A stretch of DNA of 64,000 bases from assembly GCA_027596075.1 (NCBI GenBank), contig JADGJC010000001.1, positions 68,796 through 132,795 on the forward strand. Direction: 5' to 3'. Of this stretch, positions 496-42,450 are shown piece by piece. Both the position numbers and the translations under genes were made by a program. The stretch is from Rhizophlyctis rosea. Taxonomy: Eukaryota; Chytridiomycota; Chytridiomycetes; Rhizophlyctidales; Rhizophlyctidaceae. The notes beneath the pieces are model-generated. The model searched no databases and was not told the origin of the DNA. It was given only the letters and a program-made list of their open reading frames with translations. How positions within the stretch are numbered: position 1 is the first letter of the stretch; every line of letters begins with the position of its first letter.

Positions 496-2951
496 ATGCC
501 TACCGTCACCGCGGATACCGAAATCCTCTTCGCCGAGCTGGGTCGGAGGTTCAGTAAGTTTGACCACATGCGGGACTGGTGTCAAAGACCTATTTGTTTA
601 CGCCCCACTTCAGCTGACCAGGAATTCGAGGAATTGTGCTTCGAGTTCGGCATTGAGCTGGAGGATGTTGTACGTATTGAATATACATTCGCTAGGGCTT
701 AGTGACGAAGGCACGACCTGACGCTTTATGATTCTCAGACTTCTGAGCGGGAAATGGCAGCGAAGGAGGGTGGGGCGGAGAAGGGAAAGGATCTATCCGA
801 CCGCAGAATTTACCGTATCGATATACCCGCCAACAGGTAAGATTTTCAGAAAACACAGCGAAGAGGGTTTACTCATTCTTTTTGACGTCACAGATATGAT
901 ATGTTGTGTGTGGAGGGAATTGCACGAGCGTTGAAAGCTTTCTTGAACGTTGAGAAGCCACCTGTGTACATGGTTGTGAAGCCGAAGAGTGGAAAGGTGC
1001 AACAACTGACCGTCAAGCCAGAAGTACGTGGGAAATCAATGAGGGCTTTGCAGAAGTTCATGACTAAGGAGCTGCCATAGACCCAGCAAATCCGGCCCTT
1101 CGTTGTTGCGGCGATCTTGAGAGACATTACTTTTGACGAACATCGGTACAACAGCTTCATTGAGCTACAAGACAAGTTGCACAATAACATTTGCCGGTAT
1201 TGATCAACGATTAGTATGTCTCCTCATATGAGCGTTAGAAATCTCACAGATTTGGATATTCAGCAAGCGTACCCTTGTCGCCATCGGAACACATGATCTT
1301 GACACAATCGAAGGCCCTTTCACATACGAAGCGTTGGCACCAAAAGACATCCAATTCATTCCCCTCAACCAGACAAAGTCGATGAATGCGGAGGAGCTCA
1401 TGACCTTCTACGAAGTATGTCGAAGGGAGTCATTCTGTAAACTGTCCATTACCCAGATGACTCAACATGGCAATATACAGAGCGACCGAAAACTGAGCAA
1501 ATTCTTGCACATTATCCGCGACTCACCAGTATATCCCGTGGTCTACGACAACAAACGCCGTGTTCTCTCCCTCCCTCCCATCATCAACAGCGACCACTCA
1601 AAGATCAAGCTGACCACGAAGAACGTCTTCATTGAATGCACAGCAACAGATTTGACGAAGGCTAAGATCGTGTTGAATACGGTTGTGACCATGTTCAACC
1701 AGTACACAAAGGAGAAGTTCACGTAAGCTCAGAATACAGATTGAACCAATTGAGAGGCGCTCCTCACCCCGTTTCGTGCAGCGTCGAGCCGGTCGAAGTT
1801 ACGCAAGTTGATGGAAGCAAAACCCTTTACCCCGACCTCACAAATCGCACCGTCGAAGCCGATGTGGACTATATCAACCGTTGCGTGGGATTGCAATTGT
1901 CAGCAGATGAAATCACGAAACTTGTAGAAAAGATGTCCTTGACAGCCTCCGTCAAGGACAAGAAGACGATTGCCGTGTCGGTTCCTCCCACGCGAAGTGA
2001 CATTCTTCACGCTTGTGATGTTATGGAAGATGTTGCTATCGCGTATGGCTTCAACAACCTCATTGAGACCACACCCAAAGCGAGTACCGTCGCCGTTCCT
2101 CAGCCCGTGAACAAGCTATCAGACTCACTTCGGAGAGAAGTTGCTTTGGCCGGATATACCGAAGTTTTGACTTTCACATTGGTAAGCACGTTCGATGGTC
2201 AGTTATAGAGTCATTCAGCCACTAATGTGTGTCACTCATTTTGCTATAGTGCTCGCATGATGAGAACTTCGCATGGCTAAATCAAAAGGATGTCGGACAG
2301 GTTGTAAAGCTGTCCAACCCGAAGACCGTCGAATATCAAGTAAGATCAAACATGACTTCATCCAGGTATCGATTTCTATCTTGACACGATGTGAACAAAT
2401 AGGTCGTGCGAACCAGCTTGTTGCCTGGTATCCTCAAAACGGTCAATGCCAACAAGCGATACGCACTTCCCATCAAAATTTTCGAAGTCTCGGACGTCGT
2501 TTTCAAGGATGAGAGCCAAGAGCGGTTGTCTCGCAACCAGCGGAACTTGTGCGCTCTTTACACAAACAAAACGTCTGGATTCGAGGTATGGAATCTTTTC
2601 TCCATCCTGCTCACTGACCACTTGATTGGCCTAACTACCAATGATTGACAGCTTGTTCACGGTTTGCTGGATCGCATCATGGCGAAGCTCAACATCCCCA
2701 GTGGCAGCAAGGGTTACTACATCAAGGAATCAAACAGTACGTGTGCTATTTACTGTGACAATCTTGATCCCGCTAAGTCTGACATCATCTTCTCGCCAGA
2801 CGAAACCTTCTTCCCAGGTCGCAGAGCAGACATTTATTTCCAAGATAAGGTCATTGGCACGTTCGGTATCGTGCACCCCAGCGTACTGGAGAAGTACGAA
2901 ATTGGGTTCCCTTGCACAGCGTTGGAGATTAACATTGAACCTTTCATTTAA
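496..2951 (+). CDS. FRS1: Phenylalanyl-tRNA synthetase beta subunit, cytosolic
   Basis: This is the beta chain of the alpha2-beta2 enzyme that charges tRNA-Phe in the cytosol. Twelve exons join in phase: 496-553, 614-669, 739-836, 894-1023, 1081-1196, 1264-1414, 1481-1722, 1782-2181, 2250-2339, 2403-2585, 2652-2736 and 2800-2951. They give 586 residues, against 589 in the human protein. Recognised family blocks in order are the N-terminal [23 protein letters not shown], the B3/4 region with [13 protein letters not shown] and LSLPPIIN, the B5 region with [12 protein letters not shown], and the catalytic-like core with [21 protein letters not shown] and [11 protein letters not shown], ending [10 protein letters not shown]. 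The start at MPTVTADTE matches the usual MPTV start. All introns are short GT-AG. No disruption is seen. Confidence 0.95.
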
Positions 2952-3498
2952 TTTGAGTATATATGTTTAAGTTACTAGATAGATTTCAGATTGACTGGTT
3001 AAGTTTAGTAGGGGTAGTGTATAATAGGAATTCTGTGGTCGAGTTTGCTGCATCCAATTCTTGAGAAGCGATGACGAAGGGTCTTGGCATAAAACATTTT
3101 TTGATGGATTCCGCGATACCGGTAAACATGATGAAGGTCTTTGGTAAATCTCAGGGTCGCAGATTTACACACGCATCTACCCCTGACAACTTCGGTGACT
3201 CCGAATTTGAGCGCGGTCATTTTCGCCAGTGTCGCCCGAAACGTTGTATCTGCCATTTTGCGAAGCCCTCACAGCTCATCTACTGAAGGGCAGGAAATGG
3301 TCAAAGCTTGGACGGTTGTCGTTGGAAAGAACTTCGTCCTTTGGTTCGTTATCCTTACCCATCATCTAAAAAGCCTATGCGGTCATCCAAACCACAACAT
3401 TCTCTATTCACTCCTCCAAAACACTACCTTACCCAACACCCTCAATGCCACCATCTCCTCAAGACGCCCCATGCCTTAGAGCTCTCCCGCGCGCTTGA
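2952..3498. other. Intergenic, no gene seen
   Basis: It follows the FRS1 stop. Several overlapping short frames on both strands have no family features. The 5' exon of the next gene may lie here, but no convincing start could be fixed. Confidence 0.4.
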
Positions 3499-21505: not shown

Positions 21506-22910
21506 ATGAACCCTTCCAACGTACCGGGTGCAATAGCCCTCCTCCTCGCAACTCTCCTCATCCATCATGTATCATCCGAACCCATCCCCATGCACCTCTC
21601 GCGTCGTGCTCAATCGGGAATCACGCTCGTCGTGAAGAGCGCTACGAACTTCTGCGCCATGCTGGTGAGTTTTGGACCGTTGGCTGAATTGGGTTTTGAT
21701 TCAATATATCAGCACTTTGCCGGCGCCTGATTCTGATACACGGTTTCCCGCCATTTTGCCAGCCTCCGAACCCCGGAGACACGGTCGGAAATACCGAATC
21801 AATCTCCCTCGCGTATTGCACATCCCCAGTCGACGGCGACGCCATTGGTGCCAGGGCTTTTCCGGGCGGGTTCATCACTTCTGCGCATTACGTTGCTACC
21901 TCTGGATATGTCCAAGTCACTGGAACCTTCGACAGGAGCAAGGTATGTAGTGCACCACGCATGATGATTCGTATGTTTGTTTCGAACGATCACCCCCTTG
22001 GACAACCACAACCTAACGTCTGATTTTCTATTGCACCATACAGTACAGCCTGAAGTCAAGTGACGGAGGAGGCCAGTACGACAGCGCAGCAGCAGGCATT
22101 CGTCCAGGATCGTCCTGTGCCGGTTGGGGATCCTACCTCGAATACCTGGAACCCGACAGCCAACGCTACTGCGTCAGATGCTGCGCGGATGACGGCGAGG
22201 CCGACAATTCGCCTTGCAATTGGCATCATGATTTGGATGGGTGTAACAGAATTGGTGGCGACTATGGTTGGTATTTCCCCATCCCCTCATATGCGGTTAC
22301 CTCCTTCCTGATGTTTGCCCTCCAAGACGTGAAGTTCCTTACATCTATGCATACAGGATCCGGATTCACGAACAGCGGCTCGACCGGAGGCGGTAGCGGC
22401 GGCGGCGGCGGCGGCGGTGGGTCCAAGAAAAGCGACTGGGACTTCTGCTCTTCCAACTCCGAATGCGCGAACGGGTGCTGCTCCAGCGTCTACAGCAACG
22501 ACGGCAGAACCAAGTGCACCCCTGGCGGCTTCCAATCCTACTGCACGGGCTCAACCGGCACGGGCGGCGGCGGCTCCAGCGGTGACGGTTCCGGCAGCGG
22601 CACCGGCGGCGGGTCCAAGAAAAGCGACTGGGACTTCTGCTCTTCCAACTCTGATTGCTCGAACGGGTGCTGCTCCAACATCTACAGCAACGACGGGAAG
22701 CTCAAGTGTACCCCAGGCGGGTTCCATTCCTATTGCACGGGAAGTTCGGAGGGCAGCTCCAGCGGTAGTGGTGGTGGTGGTGGGGGTAGCAGCAGCGGGA
22801 CGAAGGTCGATTGGGACTTTTGTACTGCGAACTCGGAGTGCGCGAACCGGTGTTGTTCTAACAAGTATTCGAATGATGGGAGGTTGAAGTGTACGCCTGG
22901 AGGGTGTTAG
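21506..22910 (+). CDS. Secreted protein with three cysteine-rich repeats
   Basis: Exons 21506-21664, 21763-21942 and 22044-22910 are in phase. Within the last, 22267-22356 may be a further 90-base intron, since it is in frame and ends CATACAG. The protein has 401 residues, or 371 if that is spliced. A signal peptide (about 1-24) precedes a fungal secreted domain with NFCAML, SISLAYC, GGQYDSA and QRYCVRCCADD. After a Gly/Ser linker come three repeats of about 37 residues with the pattern C-x6-C-x3-CC-x10-C-x8-C. The last repeat stops at its fifth conserved cysteine before the final C-x8-C spacing. The repeats are separated by poly-Gly/Ser linkers. The disulfide-rich modules suggest a wall-binding or extracellular role; the function is unknown. 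Confidence 0.82.
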
Positions 22911-23277: not shown

Positions 23278-24555
23278 TTAGCATCCACCAAGCCTGAGGA
23301 CCAAATGCAAGACACTGTTGCACCGAATCCTGTGGTGGCTAACAGTACGAGTATCCTCCAGTTGCAAGCCAGCGAAGATGAGTCTTTGTCGATCGATTGG
23401 AACGTATTCAGTCTCCTCGATCATCATCTTAAGTCGTTCAAGGGTATCATTGGGCCGCATGAGATATAACATTGTTTTGCCTGTAAGACTTATGACATAG
23501 ATGGGCAAGCATGGCTGATATTCGTTCGATAAGGCCTTACATTTGCGATATGTGAGACAATCATGTCCAAATTCACTGCCTACAAGGAATGGAAGTCTTA
23601 CCTCACTCATTTTCCAGTTCTCACCATCTACAGGGCAGGTTTCCTCCCTATACCCCCAAATGCGCAGCCATCCACGGATGCAATGGAAGTGGAAAGCGTG
23701 CTGTTGAGTTAAAATGTGATTGCTCTTAATTCTAACGATACCCATCAACTGGAAGCGTTACAGTATACATCGTCCCAACACTAAGAACTTACACCACAAT
23801 CCCCAACGACGACATCGCAAAATCGGTTATATTCCCGCGTGTGCTGCGACTTCCTCTCGCAATTCTTGCCTGGAGAAAAAAATCGATCAGCTTCCGCTAT
23901 AGTGCACTCCCCCTGTTCAAAAATGCAAACTGGCGAAACTGAATGGCTTACAACAGGCCGCGAGCTGTCGTCTGCAGATGAAGCAATTGGTCTCATTCAT
24001 ATCTAGCCAACAAAGATGGTGTCATTCGTATGGACCATGAGGGAGCTTTGATTGCTCTCTTTACTTACCTTCACACTTCCGCTTAGCATCCGGCGCGTCG
24101 AGTTCAAGTTCATCCCCTTTTCGCTTGATGTGACATTTTCTGTCTTCGAACTTGACGCCAAGCTCCTCATCCTCAAACATGTTCCAAATGTCCGCCGGCG
24201 GCTTCGTCGCAAAGTACTTCTCATAAGCAGCCAAAGTCGTCTGCCTTCTCTTCTTTCTGGCCGCTTCGTCCTCACCGCCATCAGGATTGTGGTGAATGAC
24301 CATGTCAACGACATTCATCATTTTCTGGTAATGACGCGTGTCCAGAATGTGATGATGCCAGCATTCATCTATCAGAGGGGACGGGGACAGGATCGTTGTG
24401 TTCGTATCCTGGAGTTTGATTTTCAGAACAAGGAAACGCTTGTATTCTATGATAAGGTTGGAAGGCGTCGAAGGGTTGGAGCGCTTCATGCGTTGTTCGA
24501 GATTGGTAAGGTCCAGGTTGAGGACGTGCTCGATCTTCTTTTGTTCGATGTCCAT
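23278..24555 (-). CDS. Fusion: unknown N-domain, RBX1-type RING-H2, C-terminal ubiquitin
   Basis: Exons 24555-24069, 24002-23952, 23869-23793, 23700-23602 and 23514-23278 join in phase to 316 residues. Residues 1-162 hold an unnamed domain with [13 protein letters not shown] and [15 protein letters not shown]. Residues 163-238 form a RING-H2 like RBX1/ROC1, with candidate zinc ligands Cys169, Cys172, Cys180, Cys183, Cys197, Cys204, His206, His209, His211, Cys212, Cys227 and Asp230 (CPVD). Residues 241-315 are ubiquitin-like ([31 protein letters not shown]), ending Gly-Gly-Cys. RBX1 recruits E2 enzymes to cullins; here such activity may be joined to a built-in ubiquitin. The Gly-Gly-Cys end could be trimmed by a deubiquitinase. 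The third exon boundary was chosen because its TTTTTTTCTCCAG acceptor restores the RING spacing. Confidence 0.82.
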
Positions 24556-40797: not shown

Positions 40798-41649
40798 ATG
40801 CAGATCTTCGTGAAGACTCTTACGGGTAAGACCATCACCCTCGAGGTACGTGACCTTACGCTTTTGTGTTAATAATGTCGAGCAAACCCACTCACATATC
40901 AATTGTTTGTGAACAGGTCGAGTCCTCGGACTCCATCAACAATGTCAAGGCCAAGATCCAAGACAAGGAAGGTTCGTTGACAAACAAGTTCTCACTTCAT
41001 ACGTGTCAAAAGTCGGTAGAATATGCTCAGAAGGGGACGGTTGTGGATTGTGGATAGTCGATGGGACACGGTCGGAATTTGGGCGGAAGAGCCGCGGCGA
41101 CCCTGGAACGGCTAGATAAGTCTCAGTTATGGAACGCGGATGTTTGGACTGGGACGGTTGAAAAGTCTGAGACGGCTGGGGTGGGGAATGGTGGAGGTGG
41201 AGGGAGTTTGGAAGGATGAGCCGGGTCGCGGTTATGGGTGCACGTATTACGCTTCATCCATAGTGCGGGAACTGACACGTCGCCGAATCCTACAGGTATT
41301 CCCCCAGACCAGCAACGTTTGATCTTCGCTGGTAAGCAACTCGAGGATGACCGCACTCTTTCCGACTACAACATCCAGAAGGGTACGTATCACCTGTTCT
41401 CTTGCCCGTTATCCATCGGTCGGCATACTCAAAACCTACCCACATCAAACAGAGTCCACCCTCCACCTTGTCCTCCGTCTCCGTGGTGGTGTCATCGAGC
41501 CCTCCCTCAAGGTGTTGGCCTCCAAGTACAACTGCGACAAGATGATCTGCCGCAAGTGCTACGCCCGTCTCCCCCCTCGTGCCACCAACTGCCGGAAGAA
41601 GAAGTGCGGTCACTCTAACCAGCTCCGCCCCAAGAAGAAGCTTAAATAA
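40798..41649 (+). CDS. RPL40: Ubiquitin-60S ribosomal protein L40 fusion
   Basis: Precursor cleaved after Gly76 to release ubiquitin and eL40. Exons 40798-40845, 40917-40971, 41296-41382 and 41453-41649 join in phase to 128 residues, the exact family length. The ubiquitin part is complete and ends LRLRGG. The L40 tail has its zinc cysteines ([27 protein letters not shown]). The start context GCCACCATG is strong. Compared with the nearly invariant ubiquitin sequence there are changes at residue 22 (Ser), 24 (Asn for Asp/Glu) and 53 (Asp for Gly). The second intron is long for this window (324 bases). Confidence 0.95.
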
Positions 41650-42450
41650 GCGGTCAACCGTTGTTGTTGGTTGCTGGGGCATTTGCAAAGGGCAGGGATG
41701 TGCAGAGGGGTTCGAGTCTCGTCATGCGGATTTCCTTGGTCTTCGGATGTCTTGTGTAATATAATTTTGCTTGAACATGACCTTGGGTTTGGTGACGAGA
41801 GATGAGTGGCTGCGATTTTGAGGAAGGACGAAGGTGTTCGGGGAGTGTTAAGGTTCATGGTCCGCGCACCCCAGATGACCAATGAGAGATTACTTGCTTA
41901 TGAGGGAAAGAGTTCGGTCGGAGATTCAGATTCAGTGGGGACTAATGGTGAGGAGGGGTCCAATTGACGCCAGTGATGGTCGACGGCTGAAGGTGATGGT
42001 TTTCAAGGGTGAAGACACGATATTGTCCGGTAACCTTCTCATGGAGGTCTCAGAGATTCTTGCATGTTGAAGGCTGGTGAATACGGAGGCAATGGCGGTT
42101 CGTTGCGACACTGCCAGACAGACCTCACGAGACTTGGACCCACACCAGGTCTGTAAAGGTAGGTATGGTGCTTTTCTTGAAGCCCGAGGCCCAAGGATGG
42201 TTCAATGGATGGTGCGGTAAAGTTCTGCCTGAAGTAGTAAGATGTGTGGTGCCTCACCACCTTCGGTTCTTATCTTGGTTAGGAAGGGTCGTTTGCCACG
42301 AGTGGCCAAAGGGGTTCACCCCAAAATACGTGCGCTATGCACTTCAGGCAGCCTAGTTTTGAAGGGAAGAAACAAAACATTTACAGGGCGAATACCCAGT
42401 CCAGCGAATTAAATACACTACTACCACACTCCATTCGTTATCCGACCCAT

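Follow-up and report, generated by a model that had tools for sequence, protein, structure and literature searches.

On the minus strand of the 64,000-nucleotide stretch of Rhizophlyctis rosea DNA analysed here (the window), a gene modelled from the sequence comprises five exons totalling 951 nt, which encode 316 amino acids and a stop. All four introns (66, 82, 92 and 87 nt) have the form GTAAG...AG. An earlier note on this DNA had likewise joined five phase-consistent exons into a protein of 316 residues; the same model was obtained on rebuilding it, and its introns were then found to match those of RBX1 (see below). The parts of the gene are as follows.

Exon 1, 24069..24555, minus strand: N-terminal helical domain (WHHHILDT), residues 1-162; phase 1 at its end
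Intron 1, 24003..24068, minus strand: 66 nt, phase 1; place and phase of the RBX1 intron before D-x5-C
Exon 2, 23952..24002, minus strand: 51 nt, the length of RBX1 exon 3; first zinc pair CFIC..C
Intron 2, 23870..23951, minus strand: 82 nt, phase 1; inside a Cys codon, exactly like RBX1
Exon 3, 23793..23869, minus strand: from the second zinc pair to C204
Intron 3, 23701..23792, minus strand: 92 nt, phase 0; directly 5' of HAFHFHC, like RBX1
Exon 4, 23602..23700, minus strand: rest of the RING after intron 3
Intron 4, 23515..23601, minus strand: 87 nt, phase 0; at the RING Trp plus four residues, like RBX1
Exon 5, 23278..23514, minus strand: ubiquitin-type domain, residues 239-316; ends LRLGGC-stop
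Cys316 codon, 23281..23283, minus strand: terminal Cys, at ubiquitin position 76

An open reading frame beside the gene (22017-22910, plus strand) contains a linker rich in glycine and, in three copies, a Cys-rich unit (SKKSDWDFCSSNSECANGCCS and its variants).

Pfam profiles applied to the 316-residue protein recover zf-rbx1 at residues 168-230 (3.4e-15; 56.5 bits, cut-off 31) and ubiquitin (PF00240) at residues 243-313 (4.1e-17; 62.1 bits, cut-off 25.4); residues 1-162 have no match above cut-off. These are the profile searches that the earlier note had called for, and they bear out both its C-terminal ubiquitin domain and its N-terminal domain of unknown kind. The presence of a helical domain, an RBX1-type RING and a ubiquitin-like domain (UBL) in one predicted protein is confirmed at the level of sequence.

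The zinc-ligand spacing of the RING is C169-x2-C172-x7-C180-x2-C183-x13-C197-x6-C204 in its first half and C204-x-H206-x2-H209-x-H211-C212-x14-C227-P-V-D230 in its second. When it is aligned to the RBX1 encoded in the same genome, all 12 ligand positions are present in the RBX1 order, the positions being called from what we take to be the zinc-binding residues of RBX1; with the zf-rbx1 match above cut-off, the RBX1-type spacing proposed earlier holds. The two proteins also share the HAFHFHC core, the four introns, and the Ile of CxIC, the Trp of the WL motif and the Pro of CP, presumably the residues through which the RBX1 RING contacts E2. The window RING differs from RBX1 in its longer C183-C197 and C212-C227 loops, in its fusion to other domains and in its linchpin, Asn98 in RBX1 (CPLDN) and Gly here (CPVDG). 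According to an extract of one study, the N98A mutation of RBX1 inhibits activity with UBE2D2 (PMC12326332).

The RBX1 gene of R. rosea (contig C281, L055) was modelled as six exons of 120, 28, 51, 71, 87 and 12 nt, interrupted by introns of phases 0, 1, 1, 0 and 0. All four introns of the window gene coincide to the base, in position and in phase, with RBX1 introns 2-5. The first shared intron (phase 1) interrupts the codon of an Asp that lies six residues ahead of the first zinc Cys and the second (also phase 1) within the Cys codon that opens the second zinc pair; the exon between them, exon 2 here and exon 3 in RBX1, is 51 nt in both genes. None of these four intron places is occupied in the APC11 gene of the same genome (C33, read by eye). 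Because the window splice model was fixed before the RBX1 gene was inspected, the match of all four introns supports this model independently of transcripts. The simplest account of the gene structures is a capture of RBX1 exons 3-5, which came to lie downstream of an N-terminal exon with a phase 1 end and upstream of a UBL exon with a phase 0 start. The window protein lacks the cullin-strand exons 1-2 of RBX1 (RFEVKKWNAVALWAW) and its final YGR exon. This agrees with the earlier suggestion that the cullin-entering part of RBX1 has been replaced: RBX1 exons 1-2 have no counterpart, and exon 1 of the window gene is unrelated to them. The intron match would make this an unusually clean exon capture, in which the RBX1 RING was freed from cullins at existing intron boundaries.

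The whole R. rosea genome (44.1 Mb, 634 contigs) was searched with the window protein. The N-terminal domain occurs at ten loci: the window, two on C34 (C34A and C34B), C605, C627, C621, C13, C602, C22 and C284. An eleventh locus, C318, starts at a contig edge within the RING, and C45 gives a further weak match (E 0.8). For C34B an open five-exon structure with phases 1-1-0-0 was obtained at the first attempt, in a model that begins at an internal Lys. C34A could be fitted by hand to the same exon order and phases, as could C605 with one extra intron. The splice sites of these two were hand-picked with the RBX1 phases in mind, the first choice containing stops and the second being open, and both models carry less weight than those of C34B and the window gene. 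In C318 the last RING exon is 87 nt, as in RBX1, and is followed by a UBL. As read by eye, C284 carries an in-frame stop in its first exon and a diverged UBL that still ends Gly-Cys, the UBL of C627 is broken, and C621 has a UBL-like stretch without Gly-Cys. No UBL was noticed by eye in frame translations of the 1.7 kb shown for C13 and C22.

Two of these loci deserve separate mention. At C602 (L044, about 2300-3300) the N-terminal domain is followed by what appears by eye to be an RRM-like part in place of the UBL, an arrangement that recalls plant GRDPs. The public protein of C34B (L039), P0031, has only 150 residues and is without the downstream RING and UBL exons; the C34B fusion has therefore been missed by automatic annotation.

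Purifying selection acts on exon 1: dN is 0.20-0.44, and dS is 0.85-2.5 in all but one of ten pairs, the remaining one being saturated. The UBL exon changes more rapidly than exon 1. Its pN/pS is 0.52-0.86 over ten pairs and its dS is saturated in four of them, so that constraint on the UBL as a whole is either weak or poorly measured. It is very unlikely that the window gene is a modelling artefact or a pseudogene. Damage does occur among its sister copies, such as the in-frame stop of C284, a stop within the domain in C13 and the broken UBL of C627, but in the window gene all five exons are open, the splice sites are of consensus type and match those of RBX1, the zinc-ligand positions are intact and the first exon is under purifying selection.

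Only the window copy was seen to have a complete RING among the copies compared. C605 has lost one ligand position (Asp-Phe at the fifth Cys of RBX1), and the RINGs of C34A and C34B have lost more. Sixteen database relatives carry both the N-terminal domain and a UBL, as found by protein searches that detect only relatives sharing short words and are no census; precomputed Pfam annotation places a RING in none of them. Since ligands are lost in C34A, C34B and C605 and no Pfam RING is seen in the 16 relatives, the RING cannot be essential to the family core. It was probably added in this lineage to a common core that, as judged from these comparisons, consists of the N-terminal domain and a Cys-ended UBL.

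The UBL ends Gly-Gly-Cys, which aligns to ubiquitin positions 74-75-76 without a gap. It follows that the Cys substitutes for the conjugating Gly76; the earlier note had the residues of this end right, but the Cys is a replacement and not an addition after Gly-Gly. R74, K48 and K63 are replaced by G, L and C, respectively, and K11 and K27 are the sole survivors of the seven lysines. The Ile44 patch (L8, I44, H68, V70) is retained in the window copy. Ubiquitin-RPL40 and polyubiquitin genes also hold a ubiquitin unit within a longer open frame, but there the unit is N-terminal or repeated and is released after Gly76, whereas here it is C-terminal and bears Cys76. An ordinary ubiquitin-RPL40 fusion gene, with introns inside its ubiquitin part, lies on the plus strand of the window at about 40900-41650.

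The earlier note had offered, among other roles, a source of free ubiquitin after trimming. Human polyubiquitin genes likewise end in a capping residue, and a precursor of this kind would have its ubiquitin-type domain cut off, trimmed and used as free ubiquitin. Such a role is hardly credible for the window protein: the Cys is at position 76 and not 77, Gly76, R74, K48 and K63 are all lost, neither Gly-Gly nor Met stands directly before the domain, and the latter shares only 51% identity with the polyubiquitin units of the same genome. It would be just as surprising if Gly75-Cys76 were self-activating, that is, if an N-to-S acyl shift produced, with neither E1 nor ATP, a thioester at Gly75 that would be passed to an E2 so that the protein marked targets with itself. 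Peptides ending in Gly-Cys do undergo N-to-S acyl transfer to thioesters, but, in an extract of the report concerned, this chemistry ran with added thiol, in acid and at about 60 C (PMC3277902). No catalytic partner for such a reaction is known, and the UBL would have lost Gly76.

A Gly-Cys end is found at six of the seven R. rosea loci with a UBL. All five loci whose UBL was detected by tblastn or a Pfam profile (the window, C34A, C34B, C605 and C318) have it; of the two UBLs seen by eye alone, that of C284 does and that of C621 does not. Eleven of the 16 database relatives, among them P0043 from Catenaria anguillulae, end in the same way; four near-identical proteins end Gly-Asp and one (P0036) runs on. 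The Gly-Asp proteins (P0033, P0039, P0040 and P0041) have their Asp at position 76, and the similar P0034 and P0042 end Gly-Cys. Inspection of the ends of 24 further UBL loci in the genome revealed no Gly-Cys-stop; these loci are part of those behind 52 matches and include a few (such as C334, C442 and C202) in which the frame breaks before the domain end. Nor does a Gly-Cys end occur in the eight fetched database matches that have a UBL without the N-terminal domain (P0017, P0018, P0023-P0025 and P0027-P0029), P0001-P0016 lying outside the matches fetched.

An alignment of 17 UBLs has a median pairwise identity of 28%, and its two most conserved columns are Gly75 (17 of 17) and Cys76 (16 of 17). 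This alignment omits P0039-P0041 (near copies of P0033, with Gly-Asp ends), P0036 (whose end runs on), C284 (first exon broken, UBL seen by eye, Gly-Cys end) and C621/P0032 (UBL-like by eye, no Gly-Cys). In the aligned sequences no feature of the UBL is thus as conserved as its Gly75-Cys76 end; the RINGs of sister copies decay. The Ile44 patch is not retained in C34B, C318, P0043, P0044 and P0046, and partners may therefore differ among family members.

Two relatives, P0043 and P0046, score above the cut-off of the SUMO-type Pfam profile and below that of the ubiquitin one. Among the 60 PDB rows listed, their matches are mostly SUMO or SUMO-tagged chains; the first row for P0043 is a repeat protein without a passing stretch. 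The SUMO alignments stop one residue before the Cys, which places the Cys of both proteins at the position of SUMO's terminal Gly.

The ligase could be self-priming or locked, as the earlier note envisaged, though the evidence leans towards a non-conjugatable mimic. We tentatively propose, without regarding it as probable, that the UBL is a ubiquitin mimic whose Cys76 thiol traps the catalytic Cys of an enzyme, the RING being the E2 dock. The UBL would settle where donor ubiquitin docks, by way of the Leu8-Ile44-His68-Val70 patch, and the terminal thiol would pair reversibly, as a disulfide, with the catalytic Cys of an E2, or else of a deubiquitinase or E1. The RBX1-type RING of the window copy, in which the contact residues Ile, Trp and Pro are kept, would serve to dock the E2, and the change of linchpin Asn98 to Gly would let it bind E2 without activating it well. 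Such a RING, able to bind an E2 but poor at activating it, and beside it a donor-ubiquitin mimic that carries a thiol at position 76, would be expected of a device that holds E2. The whole protein would then resemble an E3-E2~Ub intermediate frozen by a disulfide, acting as a redox-gated brake, trap or sensor, and the N-terminal domain would probably provide location or target.

A laboratory precedent exists for such a linkage. In the case of Ube2S, the thiol of ubiquitin G76C was activated chemically and joined by a disulfide to the catalytic Cys of the enzyme; in the extract of that study, ubiquitin made few contacts with its own E2 (PMC4734694). The G76C variant has also been disulfide-linked to the catalytic Cys of the SdeA deubiquitinase, in a report whose available part cites the approach for other E2 and HECT enzymes and describes deubiquitinases as varying in reactivity, one having reacted via another Cys (PMC10619426). 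The window UBL shares with ubiquitin the fold and the Ile44 patch and with the engineered trap a Cys at 76. Unlike the latter, it is natural, conserved in a family and placed at the end of a larger protein, and it has lost K48, K63 and R74. Several points count against trapping. Because the cytosol is reducing, a lasting disulfide would need oxidative conditions. The Gly-Asp ends of four near-identical proteins, as well as C621 and P0036 with no Gly-Cys end, would also be awkward for a family of traps. The faster evolution of the UBL exon, the loss of RING ligands in sister copies, the incomplete conservation of the Ile44 patch and the chemical activation used for Ube2S weigh on the same side.

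RING and UBL are combined in one chain elsewhere. In the RING ligases Parkin and UHRF1 the UBL is N-terminal and the RINGs are not RBX1-type; likewise, the database protein P0029 has an N-terminal ubiquitin and a RING that is not RBX1-type. The window protein could, then, be an ordinary RING E3 whose fused UBL recruits a partner (the backside of an E2, the proteasome or a ubiquitin receptor), the terminal Cys being of minor importance. The RING, with its 12 ligand positions and E2-contact residues, would allow this, as would a UBL with an Ile44 patch, and UBLs play such roles in other ligases. We consider it rather unlikely, given that no part of the UBL is kept better than its Gly-Cys end, whereas RINGs decay, that the linchpin is Gly and that the cullin strand is absent.

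The N-terminal domain bears on a further reading. AlphaFold, run on residues 1-162 with a 50-row alignment (the domain and 49 relatives), predicts an all-helical structure with a mean pLDDT of 85. Ten-residue blocks up to residue 120 score 94-98, except for 81 at residues 91-100, so that this part of the protein very probably adopts a real fold. It contains conserved Trp-His, Tyr and His columns; the nearly invariant Cys80 of the domain is absent from the window copy. The window's own N-terminal domain has no match to PF07173 (GRDP-like, DUF1399), but its relatives do: P0019 and two of the six bacterial members tested (L085 and L086) score above cut-off. Through these three, sequence comparison suggests that the domain is related to GRDP-like proteins.

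A scan of bacterial and archaeal contigs yielded 194 stretches with a relative of the domain, of which 80 were kept. Sequence patterns guided the choice of the bacterial sample, in which related Burkholderiales and Pseudomonas are abundant, so that its copies are not independent. A Cys follows the domain in 78 of the 80 bacterial copies. The Cys content is 7.6% in these tails against 1.3% in the domain, and five or more Cys are present in 51 of the 80 tails; the tail count leaves out L152 (a masked stretch) and includes L148 twice (two domains in one ORF). The small bacterial proteins (L074-L153; for example L092:2863-3726, L088:2860-3678 and L076:2902-3618) consist of a WHxHILDTRxY domain and a Cys-bearing tail. 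Some of the tails are tandem repeats (PAYCAITPGAEAK, AAWCSLEAGKP) and look like precursor peptides. To our knowledge, bacterial WHxHILDTRxY proteins with Cys-bearing tails have not been described. Among plant proteins, GRDP2 holds DUF1399 and, according to an extract of one report, has a glycine-rich C-terminal part with interspersed cysteines (PMC4299439). The window protein is comparable to the plant GRDPs through the profile matches of its relatives and through the Gly/Cys-bearing tail that follows the domain in GRDP2; it differs in having a UBL and a RING instead of an RNP motif and a glycine-rich tail.

Bacteria, plants and the UBL family have in common that a domain of this kind is followed by a C-terminal Cys, and this is the main support for the view that the domain pairs with a Cys-bearing tail as such. 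The Cys would then be a metal ligand or a site of lipid or other modification, and the UBL a carrier. A metal site would be in keeping with the Trp-His, Tyr and His columns that the domain conserves. This view, which we find conceivable though doubtful, does not account for the precise placement of the Cys at ubiquitin position 76, nor for the fact that the UBLs remain recognisable as ubiquitin or SUMO types. Moreover, the window protein does not end in a prenylation-type CaaX, CC or CxC, and its copy of the domain is without Cys80.

The individual parts of the window protein are already known. The titles and abstract openings of the open-access papers that were searched hold no description of this domain combination or of a fixed Gly-to-Cys change at the functional end of a UBL. 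Extending the proposed trap to the family, one may speculate, with real doubt, that there is a natural class of UBLs, both ubiquitin-type and SUMO-type, in which Gly has become Cys. Its members would be thiol warheads, not modifiers, capturing catalytic cysteines under oxidation, and in this chytrid one of them would have been joined to an RBX1 RING by exon capture to give a covalent E2 trap. Members of the Cys-ended family come from two fungi (R. rosea and Catenaria anguillulae) and from further public sequences. The C-terminal glycine is what ubiquitin and its relatives work through, and a family that keeps a Cys at this very place would represent a new use of the fold.
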